This document shows, piece after piece, positions 7,834 through 31,924 of a stretch of 64,000 bases of DNA (its first letter is position 1; every line of letters starts with the position of its first letter). Below the pieces are notes generated by a model. That model did no database searches and had not been told where the DNA came from. It was given only the letters and a program-made list of their open reading frames with translations. The position numbers and the translations under genes are program-made. Origin of the DNA: Aphanizomenon flos-aquae FACHB-1287 (lineage in GTDB: Bacteria > Cyanobacteriota > Cyanobacteriia > Cyanobacteriales > Nostocaceae); the NCBI RefSeq assembly GCF_014698755.1, contig NZ_JACJTO010000002.1:1-64000 (forward strand), in the 5' to 3' direction.

Positions 7834-7930
7834 ATACAGCGGTTTCCGCTCTTATTAGGTACAAAGTTGAATCATCAAACTTTTGTGGTGCGGGCATCTT
7901 ACCCGCTAGATATGTACCTCATAACACGGG
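7833..7930. repeat. Dispersed hairpin repeat, copy 1 (GCGGG...CCCGC family)
   Basis: The segment from atacagcggtttccgctc through tgtggtgcgggcatcttacccgc has a near-identical inverted counterpart at 49190-49258 and shorter relatives at 25458-25504 and 55811-55845. It contains two small hairpins: agcggtttccgct, and GCGGG-catctta-CCCGC. The remaining gap to 8292 (about 360 bp) is AT-rich and shows only a weak AAAAGTTT/AAACTTTT hairpin near 8200-8223 ahead of the next gene. Confidence 0.75.
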
Positions 7931-8292
7931 GAAGTGCTGTAGCTGATATTTCAACTCAGAATTATACTGATTTTAGTTTAAGCTAATGACGCAATTAAGG
8001 TATCGGTGTTCTAGAAATTCAAAAATTTAAAAATTTAAAAAACTATTACCAACTGTATTTTTAATATCCACGTACTACTTCAGATATATTTTCATATAAA
8101 AAAATCAAAACTATTGACAGAGATAACCAAGCTTTACTTTTGCTAAACCTATAATTGGAAGCTGGATTCAGCTTTATCCAGACTACATCCTCTTAAATAA
8201 AAAGTTTTTAATTAAACTTTTCTCAGGGGTTTGCACCTGGTTCTGTCACTTTTTTCAACTAAGAACCACTATCAATAACTAAGGGAAATAAG

Positions 8293-26646: not shown

Positions 26647-28395
26647 ATGAGTCAATGTCTTAATCCCACCTGTCTTCATCAAAATTCCCAGGGTACTAGC
26701 TTTTGTGAAAAGTGTGGCGGTAAAATCCTTTTAGATAATCGTTATCGTCCCATTAAATTTCTTGGAGAAGGTGGTTTTGGTAGAACATTTCAAGCAATAG
26801 ATGAAAAAAGATTAAATACACCCTGCGTTATTAAGCAATTTTTACCCCAACAAGTAGGAAGTGCTGCATTAGCCAAAGCTACAGAATTATTTCAACAAGA
26901 AGCCCAAAGACTTCAAGAACTAGGAAAACATCCCCAAATACCAGACTTAGAAGCCTTCTTTTCTCAAGATAATCGGCTTTATTTAGTCCAGGAATTTATT
27001 GATGGTCAAAACCTTTTTGAAGAATTTCAAACTCAAGGTAAATTAAATGAACCACAAATCAGAACTATCTTAACAGAATTATTGCCAGTTTTACAATTTG
27101 TCCATGACAATCAAGTTATTCATCGAGATATAAAACCAGAAAATATTATTAGAAGCAAAATCGGTAAATTATTTTTAATTGATTTTGGCGTTTCTAAAGA
27201 AACAAGTAAAACTATTTTAACTAGAGTGGGGACTGTTACAGGTACTCCTGGATACACTCCTCCGGAACAGTTGCGCGGCATAGTTTATCATAGTAGTGAT
27301 CTCTATAGTTTAGCTGTTACCTGTGTTAGATTATTGACAGGGCATTTTCAAAAAAATGATAGTTCAGACGAATTATTTGATACTAATAAAATGCAGTGGC
27401 AATGGCAAAAGTATGTTTCTTTAAGTCAGGAATTAACAACGATATTAGAAAAGATGTTGCAGGATATTCCTGCTCATCGTTATGATTCAGCCAAGGAAGT
27501 TTTAGCAGCATTAGCAAATGCAAAAACAAGAGTTATTCCTACTTCACAAATACAAACTTCTCAAAATCCCTTAAAACAAATTTTCCAGTTTATTTCCCTA
27601 CCAACAAACCCACCGAAACCACCAACAAATATTAACGTAAATATCAATCCTCAATCATCATTTACAGAAGACTTAGGAAATGGTGTCAAATTAGAAATGA
27701 TAGCCATATCTGGAGGAACTTTTCTCATGGGTTCACCAGAAAATGAATCAGAAAGACGTGATGATGAAAGTCCCCAACATCAAGTTACAGTTCCCAGCTT
27801 TTTTATGGGAAAATACCCCTTGACACAGGCACAATATCAGGCTATAATGGGCAGTAATCCCTCTTACTTCAAAGGTAACAACCGCCCGGTCGAACGAGTC
27901 ATTTGGGATGACGCGGTTACATTCTGTCAAAAGTTGAATCAAAAAACGGGAAAAAACTACAGATTGTCCAGTGAAGCAGAATGGGAGTATGCTTGTAGAG
28001 CAGGGACAGAAACGCCATTTTCCTTTGGTGAAAACATCAACCCAGATTTAGTCAATTACGATGGCAATTATCCCTACAAATCCGCCCCAAAAGGTAAATA
28101 TCGAAAACAAACCACAGATGTAGGAACTTTTCCCCCTAACGCTTTTGGTTTGTACGATATGCACGGGAATGTGTGGGAGTGGTGTCAAGATGACTGGCAC
28201 AAAAATTATACAAACGCGCCTACAGACGGTAGTGCTTGGAATAATCAAATCGGTAGTAGTTACAAGCTGCTTCGTGGCGGTTCTTGGTACAGCGGTGCTG
28301 GTTATTGTCGGTCCGCGGATCGCTTTAGTAATTCCCGCGGCTATCGTTACGAAGACTGCGGTTTTCGGGTCGTGTCTTCGTTCAGGACTTGGTAG
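26647..28395 (+). CDS. Ser/Thr protein kinase fused to FGE-sulfatase (C-type-lectin-like) domain
   Basis: The 582-residue protein begins with a zinc ribbon CLNPTC...CEKC (residues 4-23). A Hanks-type kinase follows at about 33-290: GEGGFGRTF glycine loop, IKQF Lys, HRDIKPEN catalytic loop, DFGVSKE, and TPGYTPPEQLRG. After a Pro/Thr linker comes a formylglycine-generating-enzyme-like domain (about 340-578): FLMGSPENESERRDDESPQHQVTV, YRLSSEAEWEYACRAG and FGLYDMHGNVWEWCQDDW. The C-terminal LLRGGSWYSG...CGFRVV has the sequence style of diversity-generating-retroelement targets and is 55% GC over 120 bases. Such kinases often act in signalling or surface recognition; the substrate is unknown. ATG 26647. 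Confidence 0.92.
   Translation: MSQCLNPTCLHQNSQGTSFCEKCGGKILLDNRYRPIKFLGEGGFGRTFQAIDEKRLNTPCVIKQFLPQQVGSAALAKATELFQQEAQRLQELGKHPQIPDLEAFFSQDNRLYLVQEFIDGQNLFEEFQTQGKLNEPQIRTILTELLPVLQFVHDNQVIHRDIKPENIIRSKIGKLFLIDFGVSKETSKTILTRVGTVTGTPGYTPPEQLRGIVYHSSDLYSLAVTCVRLLTGHFQKNDSSDELFDTNKMQWQWQKYVSLSQELTTILEKMLQDIPAHRYDSAKEVLAALANAKTRVIPTSQIQTSQNPLKQIFQFISLPTNPPKPPTNINVNINPQSSFTEDLGNGVKLEMIAISGGTFLMGSPENESERRDDESPQHQVTVPSFFMGKYPLTQAQYQAIMGSNPSYFKGNNRPVERVIWDDAVTFCQKLNQKTGKNYRLSSEAEWEYACRAGTETPFSFGENINPDLVNYDGNYPYKSAPKGKYRKQTTDVGTFPPNAFGLYDMHGNVWEWCQDDWHKNYTNAPTDGSAWNNQIGSSYKLLRGGSWYSGAGYCRSADRFSNSRGYRYEDCGFRVVSSFRTW
28262..28395 (+). other. Probable DGR variable region at the 3' end of the kinase-FGE gene
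   Basis: The last ~130 bases encode the lectin-fold end. Conserved islands (cttcgtggcggttcttgg, tgtcggtccgcg, ggttttcgggtcgtg) alternate with codons that would all be one or two adenine substitutions from AAC/AAT (tac, agc, ggt, gct, gat, ttt, agt, cgt). This is the pattern of adenine-mutagenised VR sequence. No reverse transcriptase, template repeat or Avd gene is visible in this window, so the retroelement would have to lie elsewhere. Confidence 0.55.
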
Positions 28396-28680
28396 CCCTT
28401 TATACTCTTATTCTTTTACCCTCTGCCCTTCTTTTTCTTTTCCCTTCTTAATTCCTCCGCCTCTAGCGGAACAATTTTGCAGAAATAACATAGGGCTACT
28501 TCACGAATATAGCACACAGATTGTACAAATGGCAATAAGAAGAGAATTATTAAAATACTAATGTAGGGTGTGTTAGCGACAGCATAACGCACTATAATTG
28601 CGAGATAGTTAAATCATCTTTATGAGTCAGAGATATATTTATATTATAATTAATTTAGTCTAATCATAATATTTAAAATC

Positions 28681-28917
28681 ATGAATAACCTGGTATTAGA
28701 GAGAATAACAATTAACCATGATATTTGTCATGGTAAACCCTGTATTCGTGGATTACGCTATCCTGTAGAAATGATCTTAGAACTTTTGAGTTCAGGAATG
28801 AGTATTGATGATATTTTAGGAGATTATGATGATTTAGAATACGAAGATATTTTAGCAGTTCTCACCTTTGCTACTCAACTCACTCAAGTTAAAAGTATTC
28901 GACAATTAGTTTCATGA
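28681..28917 (+). CDS. DUF433 antitoxin
   Basis: The 78-residue DUF433 protein is the usual antitoxin partner of DUF5615 PIN-like toxins. It shows the family opening ITINHDICHGKPCIRGLRYPV and the winged-helix-like LSSGMSIDDILGDYDDLEYEDILAVLTFA. It probably binds the operon promoter and neutralises the toxin. The downstream toxin gene overlaps by 4 bp (ATGA), so the two are translationally coupled. ATG 28681 is 285 bp after the kinase gene; that gap holds pyrimidine-rich sequence and a gcgacagcataacgc repeat-like segment but no gene. Confidence 0.9.
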   Translation: MNNLVLERITINHDICHGKPCIRGLRYPVEMILELLSSGMSIDDILGDYDDLEYEDILAVLTFATQLTQVKSIRQLVS

Positions 28918-29264
28918 AATTCTTAATTGATGCTCAATTACCAGAACGTATTGCAAATTTATTGAAAAAATTAGGTTATGATGTTGTACACACCAAAAAT
29001 CTACCTTTACAAAATGCAACTCCAGATTCAGAAATTAACAAATTATCAATCATAGAACAGAGAATTGTTATTACTAAAGATAAAGATTTTTTAGATTCTT
29101 TTTTAATCAAAAAAGAGCCTTACAAACTACTATTAATAACAACAGGTAATATTAGTAATAAACAAATTGAGCAAATTTTTATCCAAAATATTTCCCAAAT
29201 GGTTGAGTTATTTATGAATTATGATTTTTTAGAACTGACTAAAGATAGTTTGATTATTCATTAA
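28914..29264 (+). CDS. DUF5615 PIN-like toxin
   Basis: The 116-residue PIN-fold protein is a probable ribonuclease toxin. Acidic metal-site candidates are Asp6 (FLIDAQLP), Glu/Asp near residue 39-41 (PDSEI) and Asp in the ITKDKDF motif (about 58-62), which is the family hallmark. It overlaps the DUF433 antitoxin gene by 4 bp. The pair is a typical accessory module and lies between a DGR-like target gene and a Uma2 gene. Confidence 0.88.
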   Translation: MKFLIDAQLPERIANLLKKLGYDVVHTKNLPLQNATPDSEINKLSIIEQRIVITKDKDFLDSFLIKKEPYKLLLITTGNISNKQIEQIFIQNISQMVELFMNYDFLELTKDSLIIH

Positions 29265-29308: not shown

Positions 29309-29365
29309 ATCAACCACCATCAACAGCGTACTCAATTAATAGAGATAACCGTTGACGCAGAGTTT
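29309..29365 (-). pseudogene. Detached copy of the hflX 3' end
   Basis: On the minus strand this segment translates to TLRQRLSLLIEYAVDGG followed by TGA, the same as the C-terminus of the complete hflX at 30188 except Gln to Glu. The DNA matches 48 of 57 positions (30187-30243), and nearly all differences are synonymous. No hflX sequence continues beyond about 29366. It is therefore a fragment of a diverged hflX allele, left by recombination or by insertion of the Uma2 block, and is not a gene. Confidence 0.75.
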
Positions 29366-29416
29366 TTCTTTTCCCTTCTTAAGGGTGAATTATCAGGTTA
29401 TTATTCCTGATTCAGA

Positions 29417-29989
29417 TTACCCAAAAACAACACCGCGATAAATTTCCGATATCGGTAAATCAACCCCAACAGACTCCAAAGAAATGGATTTTTCTAAATC
29501 ATTAAAATCACTCAATAACCAACCTTGAGACTGTTTACTATATTTTTCTATAAAAATTTCATCTTGTTCAACTAATAAATATTCACAAAAACTGCTAATT
29601 GAACGATACATCCGAAACTTGCTTTGTCGGTCATAATCTGCGGTTGAAGGTGATAATACTTCTACAATTAAAATGGGATTTAAAACTTCATCATTGCGGT
29701 TTTCATTTAGTTGCGGTTGATTTGCAAAAACCATTACATCTGGATATACTCCGCGTTGATATTCAGGAATCCATAACCTCAAATCACTATTAATTGGCTC
29801 ACATTTACTATCGCGCAAAATAAATTTGAGAAATGCAAAAATATTGCCACCTATACGGCTATGATTGATTGATCCTCCTGACATGGGAACAATTTCTCCA
29901 TGACGATATTCACTGCGTTCTTCAGCTTTTTCTTCAATGGCGCGATATTCATCTAAACTATAACGACGCTCAACAGTAGTAATCATCAT
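29417..29989 (-). CDS. Uma2 family (DUF820) putative endonuclease
   Basis: The 190-residue protein belongs to the Uma2/DUF820 family of PD-(D/E)XK-fold nucleases that is highly expanded in cyanobacteria. Visible signatures are YSLDEYRAIEEKAEERSEYRHGEIV, the catalytic-type PDVMVF (Asp) and ILIVEVLSPSTADYDRQSKF (Glu...Lys). The biological role of the family is not settled; many copies are mobile or linked with repeats. This copy lies between the hflX fragment (29309-29365) and a MITE (30042-30149), consistent with an inserted block. ATG 29989 is preceded by a second ATG codon; either could start. Confidence 0.88.
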   Translation of the reverse strand: MMITTVERRYSLDEYRAIEEKAEERSEYRHGEIVPMSGGSINHSRIGGNIFAFLKFILRDSKCEPINSDLRLWIPEYQRGVYPDVMVFANQPQLNENRNDEVLNPILIVEVLSPSTADYDRQSKFRMYRSISSFCEYLLVEQDEIFIEKYSKQSQGWLLSDFNDLEKSISLESVGVDLPISEIYRGVVFG

Positions 29990-30041
29990 CTTATCACCAA
30001 TTACATTGAAGTCATCATGATTCTAGCAAAACTGGATTATA

Positions 30042-30149: not shown

Positions 30150-30187
30150 ACGGGGACGGGGTAGGCACGGGGGCGCTACCCCTACAA

Positions 30188-31924
30188 TCAACCACCATCA
30201 ACAGCGTACTGAATAAGCAGTGATAGACGTTGACGTAAAGTTTCCATTCCTAAACGCTGACTAGCAGAAATAAAAATCGCCAAAGGAAACTCCTCCCTCG
30301 CTAAAGCCAGGGTTTCGCTACTAACCTGATCAATTTTATTAAAAGCCACTAAAGCAGGTCCCGGTGTAATAGGCATTTGTGCGAGTATGTCCCGAACTGA
30401 GCGAATATGACTTAACCAAGCAGGATGAGATAAATCTACTAAATGCAATAAAGCGTCTGCCTCTGTTACCTCCTCCAGAGTAGCACGAAAGGCATCCATT
30501 AAAGAAGATGGTAATTCATGAATAAACCCTACAGTATCCGTCATTAAAGTTTCCTGAATCACACCCGTTTCAGCGTGGGGAAGCATTAACCGTCTAGTAG
30601 TTGGGTCAAGTGTAGCAAATAATTGATCAGCCGTGTATACTTCCGAGTTGGTAAGGGCATTAAGTAAAGTAGATTTACCAGCATTAGTATAACCTACTAA
30701 AGCCACAGAGGGAACTTCTCGGTGTTGTCGCCGTTGACGTAATCTACAACGATGTGCTTGTAATTGATTAACTTCCTGTTGAAGTCGAGAAATGCGTTTT
30801 TGAATAGCCCGACGTTCCGTTTCTAGCTTGGTTTCACCAGGTCCCCTAGTACCGATACCACCTCCCAATCTGGACATGGCTTGACCTCTACCAGTGAGTC
30901 GTGGTAACATATACTCTAACTGCGCTAATTCTACCTGTAATTTACCAGCACCAGATTGAGCGCGTTGAGCAAAAATATCTAAAATTACTTCGGTACGGTC
31001 AACGACTCTCACACCAATTTGCGCTTCTAAATTGCGGACTTGGGAAGGTGAAAGATCACGATCAAATACTACCAAATTAGCACCCAGAGTTTGCGCTGTG
31101 AGAGCAACTTCTTGGACTTTACCTTCACCAATCACTGTTTGGGGATGAATACGCGATCGCTTTTGTTGTAAAGTCTGTAATACATCACCCCCCGCCGTAT
31201 CTACCAACCGTGCCAATTCTGCTATAATATCCTGGAATTGTTGAGGGCTGGTATTATCCGTTAATACTCCTACAATTACCACCCGATCATGATCAGCGTC
31301 TACTTCCTGAGCTACATATTCCCGACTAAATTCCGCTTCTAGACTTTCCACCAATTCCAGAAAACCCTGGTCAGCCAAAGCATCTAAACTTAGAGGCGGT
31401 GATATATGGGAATATGTATCAGTATTGGGGATACTGGTACTAGCGGATTGAGTCACAACCAATTGTCTGTTATTAGCCACCAGATGTGCTAGATAAGCTT
31501 CTTTTACGTATCCAGTGGCACCACCACCACGCTTAGTAAATCCGCCTCCAGTTATATTAAAAACTACTAAAGCATCTAACCTTTGTAAAGCCATTGCTGT
31601 CAAGTCCGCTTCATTCGGTGGTTCTGACTTGAGATTAGTAGATAAACAACGAATACCGCTCAAACGTTCAGCACCGTAACGTGGCAGTTCTAGGGGCGGG
31701 ATTTGGGTTTGACGCGGACTACCTACACCAACACGAATTACTTGGCCGCGACGGTTGATATAAGTACAAATAGGTTGATTAATTTCCGTACTAACTGCTG
31801 CAAGACGTTGTGCAAACTCAGATGTAGTAATACAATCCCCTGATATCCGCTGATGGTACAGCCGCTGGAGTTGTTTTAGCTGGCTGGACTTTAAACCTTG
31901 AATATTGCCAAAAATAGTCTCTAT
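30188..31924 (-). CDS. hflX: GTPase HflX; conserved N-terminus lacks a canonical start codon
   Basis: This ribosome-associated GTPase splits or rescues stalled 70S ribosomes. The order is an N-terminal nucleotide-binding/HflX domain, a coiled coil (TKLETERRAIQKRISRLQQE) and a G domain with G1 GYTNAGKSTLL, G3 DTVGF and G4 FNKID. A frame starting at TTG 31663 gives 491 residues, but translation continues upstream without a stop for 87 more codons of good family-like sequence (ETIFGNIQGLKSSQLKQLQR... to RYGAERL). That extension begins ACG-CCT-ATA-GAG right after an in-frame TAA, with no ATG, GTG or TTG. I give the ATA (31924-31922) as the possible start; a mutated start or an infC-like rare start are the options. 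Confidence 0.85.
   Translation of the reverse strand: METIFGNIQGLKSSQLKQLQRLYHQRISGDCITTSEFAQRLAAVSTEINQPICTYINRRGQVIRVGVGSPRQTQIPPLELPRYGAERLSGIRCLSTNLKSEPPNEADLTAMALQRLDALVVFNITGGGFTKRGGGATGYVKEAYLAHLVANNRQLVVTQSASTSIPNTDTYSHISPPLSLDALADQGFLELVESLEAEFSREYVAQEVDADHDRVVIVGVLTDNTSPQQFQDIIAELARLVDTAGGDVLQTLQQKRSRIHPQTVIGEGKVQEVALTAQTLGANLVVFDRDLSPSQVRNLEAQIGVRVVDRTEVILDIFAQRAQSGAGKLQVELAQLEYMLPRLTGRGQAMSRLGGGIGTRGPGETKLETERRAIQKRISRLQQEVNQLQAHRCRLRQRRQHREVPSVALVGYTNAGKSTLLNALTNSEVYTADQLFATLDPTTRRLMLPHAETGVIQETLMTDTVGFIHELPSSLMDAFRATLEEVTEADALLHLVDLSHPAWLSHIRSVRDILAQMPITPGPALVAFNKIDQVSSETLALAREEFPLAIFISASQRLGMETLRQRLSLLIQYAVDGG

Follow-up and report, generated by a model that had tools for sequence, protein, structure and literature searches.

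The window analysed here is a 64,000-nucleotide stretch of Aphanizomenon flos-aquae FACHB-1287 (contig NZ_JACJTO010000002.1, positions 1 to 64,000 of the forward strand), whose genome, G000 below, is a draft assembly of 4.35 Mb in 85 contigs with 99.75% completeness. The genes at the locus run in the order ppk-like gene, response regulator, DUF2854, kinase-FGE gene (here called VP, for variable protein), DUF433/DUF5615, Uma2 and hflX, and the features discussed below are:

26647..28395, plus strand: VP gene, Ser/Thr kinase fused to an FGE/C-type-lectin-like domain, 582 aa (ORF; PF00069 and PF03781; PADLOC)
about 28267..28389, plus strand: variable region (VR), the template-homologous stretch (mismatch to the G005 template, allele comparison)
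28360..28389, plus strand: invariant 3' end of the VR, candidate IMH (comparison with the TIR copy and the G005 template)
28396..28455, plus strand: non-coding pyrimidine-rich tail after the stop codon (composition, comparison with the TIR copy, motif scan)
28456..28470, plus strand: GC hairpin TCCGC-CTCTA-GCGGA with a perfect 5-bp stem
28681..29264, plus strand: DUF433 and DUF5615 (PIN-like) pair (Pfam), between VP and Uma2, where G010 has Avd-RT; absent there in G003
29417..29989, minus strand: Uma2-family gene (PF05685)
30188..31663, minus strand: hflX-like GTPase, syntenic anchor (GTPase domains by Pfam), which we take to be hflX

The reading frame of VP is intact, and Pfam places the kinase domain at residues 34-286 and the FGE-sulfatase domain (PF03781) at residues 350-576 of the 582. 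The top PADLOC model for residues 1-311 is PD-T4-6 (E=1.5e-115) and many PD-T4-6 kinase models match, which, as a profile match alone, is suggestive of a PD-T4-6-like defence kinase. The FGE domain matches variable protein 1 of Treponema denticola (PDB 2y3c, E=5.6e-28), presumably a target of a diversity-generating retroelement (DGR), whereas the kinase domain is a feature of the window protein. A preliminary description of this DNA, made from its letters, had seen a GC-rich gene end with conserved islands alternating with variable codons, and had read it as the VR of a DGR in a lectin-like fold fused to a kinase. Both the fold and the fusion are confirmed by the domain matches. Positions 28262-28395 have a GC content of 54.5%, while the kinase domain has 33.7% and the window 36.5%, and only 14 of 6387 134-bp stretches sampled from the window are as GC-rich or richer. 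Within the VR the islands LLRGGSW, CRSA and CGFRVVSSFRTW are kept, with variable codons between them, and the VR lies at the 3' end of the FGE/C-type-lectin-type gene.

In DGRs the RNA of a template repeat (TR) is reverse transcribed with errors at adenines and the cDNA replaces the VR (PMC7517822, PMC3240598). A complete DGR is found on one 5.7-Mb contig of Dolichospermum G005, with a kinase-FGE VP, TR (L036 6038-6160), Avd (PF22296) and reverse transcriptase (RT; PF00078, 66.5 bits). Against this template, which is the congener's and not G000's own, the mismatches of the window VR fall on 15 of 28 adenines and on 14 of the 95 remaining bases (p=7e-5), so that the differences are concentrated at template adenines and the assignment as a DGR variable region stands. 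The same bias is seen in all 12 VRs counted against the G005 TR (p<=0.0052; 12 of 13, G012 being left out for a 3-nt deletion). The cis VP of G005 differs from its TR at 17/28 adenines and 2/95 other bases, and three VRs of G005 itself have a mere 1-2 non-A differences. The earlier statement that the variable codons are each reachable from AAC/AAT by changing adenines was slightly overstated: at the 11 AAC/AAT codons of the G005 TR, ten window codons are adenine-reachable from AAY (all ten read NNY), but GAA at 28351 is not, and in two codons facing template AGG, GGT (28300) and AGT (28327), a base other than A has changed.

Some of the non-A differences of the window VR are common to its relatives, which points to a clade-specific template. 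Relative to a consensus of six related VRs, built from the same six that were then compared with it and thus including the window VR, the window VR departs at 7/95 non-A positions and the TIR copy described next at 0. These seven departures fit decay after loss, and also a template outside the present sample.

An own-genome search returned one other close copy of the window VR in G000, at C8:9821-9950 (84%), in which a TIR-FGE gene (PF13676, PF03781) ends. The two VRs differ at 21 sites, 14 of 28 at template adenines and 7 of 95 elsewhere (p=2e-6); the even spread of mismatches between paralogues that the preliminary description had named as evidence against its reading is not what we observe. 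Comparison of the two genes gives 56-73% identity in bins of the FGE domain, 88/95 at non-A positions of the VR, 43/45 in the tail (28396-28440, outside the coding frame) and 24/80 beyond it. Such a rise in identity within the VR, save at the adenines, is the trace expected of retrohoming from a common template. Both VRs end in ACTTGG, while the other SSFRT-type VRs compared end in ACTTTG and that of G010 in AATTTG. A third kinase-FGE gene of G000 (C6, about 88550-90288; L103 1550-3289) is 80% identical to the window gene, and its VR-like end is diverged and followed by no pyrimidine tail.

The same codons stand out between strains. Among the six kinase-FGE alleles at the locus (G000, G003, G010, G039, G005 and G007), AAY codons differ in 150/165 comparisons, as against 523/4486 in the N-terminal/kinase part, 446/3000 in the FGE body and 150/450 at non-AAY VR codons, the last figure being raised partly because the VRs of G005 and G007 belong to other template types. 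Between the G000 and G003 alleles 9/11 AAY codons differ, and 3/30 of the other VR codons.

G000 has 12 FGE matches, of which the two template comparisons scored nine and ten, C10 being added later; the match on C59 covers the N-terminal part of the model only and has no VR end. In six VRs of G000 the non-A mismatch to the best template is 1-18% (window 14/95, TIR 11/95, C78 1/90, C6:36201 6/90, C48 16/89, C38 14/85), and in the FGE genes without a close template it is 28-49% of aligned bases. Adenine bias in the latter genes varies with the template: p=0.001-0.01 for C6:89590 (L159; best of three templates 0.001), 0.03-0.04 for C10 (L153), 0.07-0.1 for C52 (L156), 0.09-0.5 for C39 (L150) and 0.5-0.8 for C15 (L160), all p values spanning several templates being uncorrected. 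A weak bias can arise here because variation falls on the same positions of the fold. Therefore it is not diagnostic by itself, and what we count as evidence is the bias combined with low non-A mismatch.

The end of the VR and the DNA behind it are unusually constant. Positions 28360-28395 are identical to the TIR-FGE copy at 36/36 bases, and the invariant VR end shows one C/G difference from the G005 template (CAGCACT in the template, CAGGACT in the VRs); we name it a candidate IMH by analogy with Bordetella phage BPP-1 (PMC3240598). The tail after the stop codon is 89% pyrimidine over 55 nt, a value reached by only 0.009% of window 55-mers on both strands, and the runner-up among 44 long-frame 3' flanks has 71%. 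Tails beginning TAGCCCTTTAYACTCTT follow the stop codon of VR genes from different template families and genera, with further examples at L013 9769-9823, L151, L155 and others. In a scan of 865 kb (redundant), the motif CCCTTTAYACTYTY occurred at 26 distinct sites, 26/26 directly after an FGE VR end, which is not a genome-wide specificity because the loci were fetched for holding FGE genes and many overlap. A CCCTTTA-type pattern fits 29/55 distinct FGE ends, and 49/55 pass a 72% pyrimidine cut-off that was picked after the tails had been seen. In G000 a pyrimidine-rich tail (76-89%) follows 6/6 VR genes, and none was found after the five other FGE genes having an end (L150, L153, L156, L159 and L160; 45-60% pyrimidine). 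A search of G000 with the tail returned, besides the two VRs, only a 20-nt piece (29363-29382), the more diverged tails of C78 and C48 not being reported by it, and the downstream flank of the G005 template itself has no such tail.

A GC stem follows 22 of the 49 tailed FGE ends, as against 36 of 1000 random 120-mers from the window, and 21 of these 22 stems begin 46-64 nt after the stop codon; energy folding of the window 3' flank as single-stranded DNA was not significant (z -1.6). In BPP-1 a GC hairpin lies downstream of the VR and the IMH at the VR 3' end (Guo et al., 2011, PMC3240598), and both have possible counterparts in the window. The BPP-1 hairpin, however, sits close to the VR and combines a stem of 8 bp and a GRNA-type loop, while that of the window has a 5-bp stem and follows about 60 nt of pyrimidine-rich DNA after the stop codon; a function for it here would be hypothetical. 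By the same analogy, the tail might hypothetically serve as a homing address, like the BPP-1 hairpin.

None of the components of a complete, active DGR (RT, TR, Avd) was found in the draft assembly of G000. RVT_1 gave no match at E<=10, where the same model scores the G005 RT at 66.5 bits, two DGR RT proteins used as queries gave none either, and bAvd (PF22296) was not found at E<=0.001. The G005 TR as query led to three places, none of them a TR: the VRs on C8 and C12 and the diverged FGE-gene end at C6:90165. DNA of the G010 cassette gave 22 matches in G000, and the 10 listed of these are all one dispersed repeat of ~35 nt. The preliminary description had taken the gene for a remote (trans) target with RT and template elsewhere in the genome, and had proposed a search for them, the failure of which would count against that claim; neither was found in the assembled genome, nor was an Avd, and the claim is not upheld for this assembly.

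A DGR RT is present in 5/16 genus genomes, with bAvd over the cut-off in the same five, and a VR match (E<=1e-6, some partial) in 11/16, six of which have no RT (G000, G001, G003, G008, G009 and G015). The TR of G010 itself was not recovered in searches of that genome. We also observed a template-like repeat beside an FGE-type gene at L104 (G009:C1:1876370-1876507) and L105 (G005:C1:937441-937578), and saw no RT gene within the surrounding 8 kb; the two-contig genome of G009 gave no DGR RT match.

What may have happened at the locus is best seen by comparing strains around the hflX-like GTPase gene, which was found in 20/20 genomes searched. In G010 the gene order of the window is kept as far as VP, which stops about 140 bp short of a contig end, and another contig end carries Avd, RT, Uma2 and hflX in the same orientation. 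The adjacency of Avd-RT to VP in G010 rests on synteny, because contigs C142 (VP) and C495 (Avd-RT) are not physically joined. The block 29405-30037, which includes Uma2, is 96.8% identical in G010, where it starts 12 positions after the RT coding end. In G006 the RT is reduced to its final 135 bp (88%; L115, G006:C37, reverse-complement positions about 7879-8013), which stand at the same distance from Uma2 as in G010, with hflX beyond it; a fragment of a DDE transposase (PF01609) precedes this remnant. Elsewhere the order is VP-hflX (G003 and G007), VP-Uma2-hflX (G005) or VP-Uma2-DUF433/DUF5615-hflX (G039). VP is absent from the locus in G002, G004, G011, G013, G014 and the outgroup G048, other genes adjoin hflX in G008, G009, G012 and G015 (in G008 with Uma2 in between), and the G001 contig ends. 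The DUF433/DUF5615 pair, which in our reading resembles a toxin-antitoxin module, occupies in G000 the place where G010 has Avd-RT.

Two repeats were noted in this area: 57 nt of the hflX 3' end (84%; 29309-29365 and 30187-30243) and an exact 20-nt repeat of the VP tail (28432-28451 and 29363-29382). Since both bracket inserted modules and the module order varies by strain, this area has the look of a hot spot for recombination.

We consider it likely that the 3' end of the window gene is a DGR variable region that was rewritten in the past and whose machinery is absent from the assembly, leaving an orphaned, probably frozen and probably once-cis target. In this mechanism, adenine-mutagenic retrohoming would first have rewritten the VR from a template of the family that is intact in G005. 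The machinery (template RNA, Avd and RT) would once have stood between VP and Uma2/hflX and then been lost, and the former cassette stretch would now hold the DUF433/DUF5615 pair. The window gene looks like a formerly cis target because Avd-RT of G010 adjoins the same Uma2-hflX neighbours, and a common-ancestor cassette lost in G000 and G003 seems the simplest reading. The hflX tree places G000 as the sister of a clade made up of G001, G003, G006, G010 and G015 (support 99/100 for all six, 100/99 for the five), and so outside the clade of G010 and G006; the cassette could therefore have been gained after the split. That it stood in cis in G000's own ancestor and was then lost is a view towards which we lean only slightly. 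With neither RT nor TR, the VR should now change by ordinary mutation alone.

The first alternative is that the gene is still a trans target of a DGR that is in the cell but missing from the assembly, for example on a plasmid; a draft of 85 contigs leaves room for one, and the trans source might also have been a plasmid since lost. Plasmid-borne DGRs do exist: pANA02 of Anabaena sp. 90 (L187) carries FGE genes, avd, RT and a TR-like repeat, the DGR genes being flanked on one side by IS transposases in the stretch covered, and G002 is 95.5% identical to it over 2150 bases with avd, RT and TR. The chromosomal C78 VR of G000 (L151, C78:35885-36595) differs from the pANA02 TR at 15/35 adenines and at just 1/90 other bases, although the body of the C78 gene is only 66-67% identical to the two pANA02 FGE genes. 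Very probably, then, a pANA02-like template acted on the chromosome of G000's lineage, even though the assembly contains no such RT. The window VR, in contrast, fits the pANA02 TR poorly (non-A mismatch 23/78). The lack of any RT match in the assembly also speaks against a resident trans DGR, as does the failure of the window VR plus tail to match plasmid and phage collections at E<=1e-5 and of its exact 26-nt VR end to occur in IMG/VR. We regard this alternative as unlikely. With zero matches in these collections, a location of the window VR on a known phage or plasmid is not supported; a scan of IMG/VR with the DGR RT gave 20 distant relatives, with 30-48% identity in the best segment.

A second alternative is that the gene had been diversified before it was copied or acquired from a DGR-bearing strain, without homing in G000's lineage. 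Horizontal exchange at the locus is real, since strains resemble one another more in Uma2 (about 96-97% identical in five genomes) and DUF433/DUF5615 (96% in G039) than in hflX (84-92% across the genus). The kinase part of VP, however, shows 90% identity to that of G003 and G010, much as hflX does (91%), in keeping with vertical descent, and the ACTTGG ending common to both G000 VRs suggests a shared history within the lineage, so we judge acquisition improbable. An ordinary fast-evolving lectin-like C-terminus with no part played by a DGR can be rejected as highly implausible: RGGSW...CRSA...GFRVV is indeed common to most FGE genes of G000 and a weak adenine bias (p 0.001 to 0.8) extends to those without a close template, but genes whose bodies are quite unlike one another keep their non-A bases and vary at A positions, conservation extends past the coding frame into the tail, which is missing from the FGE genes without a close template, and the intact G005 DGR has VRs of its own with the same pattern.

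The probably orphaned target can be set beside described systems. The cyanobacterial DGRs of PMC7517822 (2020) include, like the window, kinases with a C-terminal CLec domain and the VR at the 3' end, as well as dispersed VP paralogues and TIR-like fusions. One paralogue, all3226, has remnant TR-VR homology and no RT nearby, much like the window gene, and a degraded cassette with transposases as well as a DGR on plasmid CP003287 were described in Anabaena sp. 90 (PMC7517822). Each of the 52 genomes of that study had a complete cassette, whereas the G000 assembly yielded no RT, Avd or TR and yet has six FGE genes with template-like VRs; a further difference is that the window locus can be compared with congeners having the cassette or a truncated RT.

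In Thiohalocapsa PB-PSB1, transposons and MITEs degrade DGR loci, and RT or TR is lost from some of them while the targets remain, as may have happened in the window; degraded versions occur there alongside intact ones (Dore et al., 2024, PMC10907252). Nine DGR loci are present in that genome (PMC10907252), while no RT was found in the G000 assembly, and by our reading the RT of another locus may serve the degraded ones. The DGR of Nostoc punctiforme, another filamentous cyanobacterium, has two target genes with RT, Avd, TR and VRs, and resequencing revealed low-level adenine mutation (PMC12691664). Its machinery is present and expressed (PMC12691664), in contrast to that of G000, which was not found in the assembly. 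A literature search, partial in its coverage and so saying little on novelty, found nothing on a DGR in connection with Dolichospermum or with a pyrimidine-rich tail.

As to function, the lectin-like domain may sense a variable ligand and gate the kinase, in line with hypotheses put forward in PMC7517822, and the IMH-like end, pyrimidine tail and hairpin may keep the VR receptive should a matching DGR return. If the downstream tail is a homing address, it would be a simple signature for remote and orphan DGR targets in cyanobacteria. The fit of a plasmid TR to a chromosomal VR of another strain (89/90 non-A bases) suggests that mutagenic templates move between strains. More tentatively, the Dolichospermum DGR could be an itinerant mutator, its cassettes coming and going on plasmids such as pANA02 among others, with kinase-, TIR- and caspase-FGE sensors keeping receptive 3' addresses and strains like G000 holding frozen receptor panels between bouts; we see this as a possibility with the odds against it. 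The appealing claim of the preliminary description, that of a kinase whose recognition surface is being diversified now, gives way to a better-supported one, that of a diversified kinase stranded without its mutator. With congeners that have the cassette, a truncated form of it or none around this gene, the loss of a DGR and its consequence become directly comparable.
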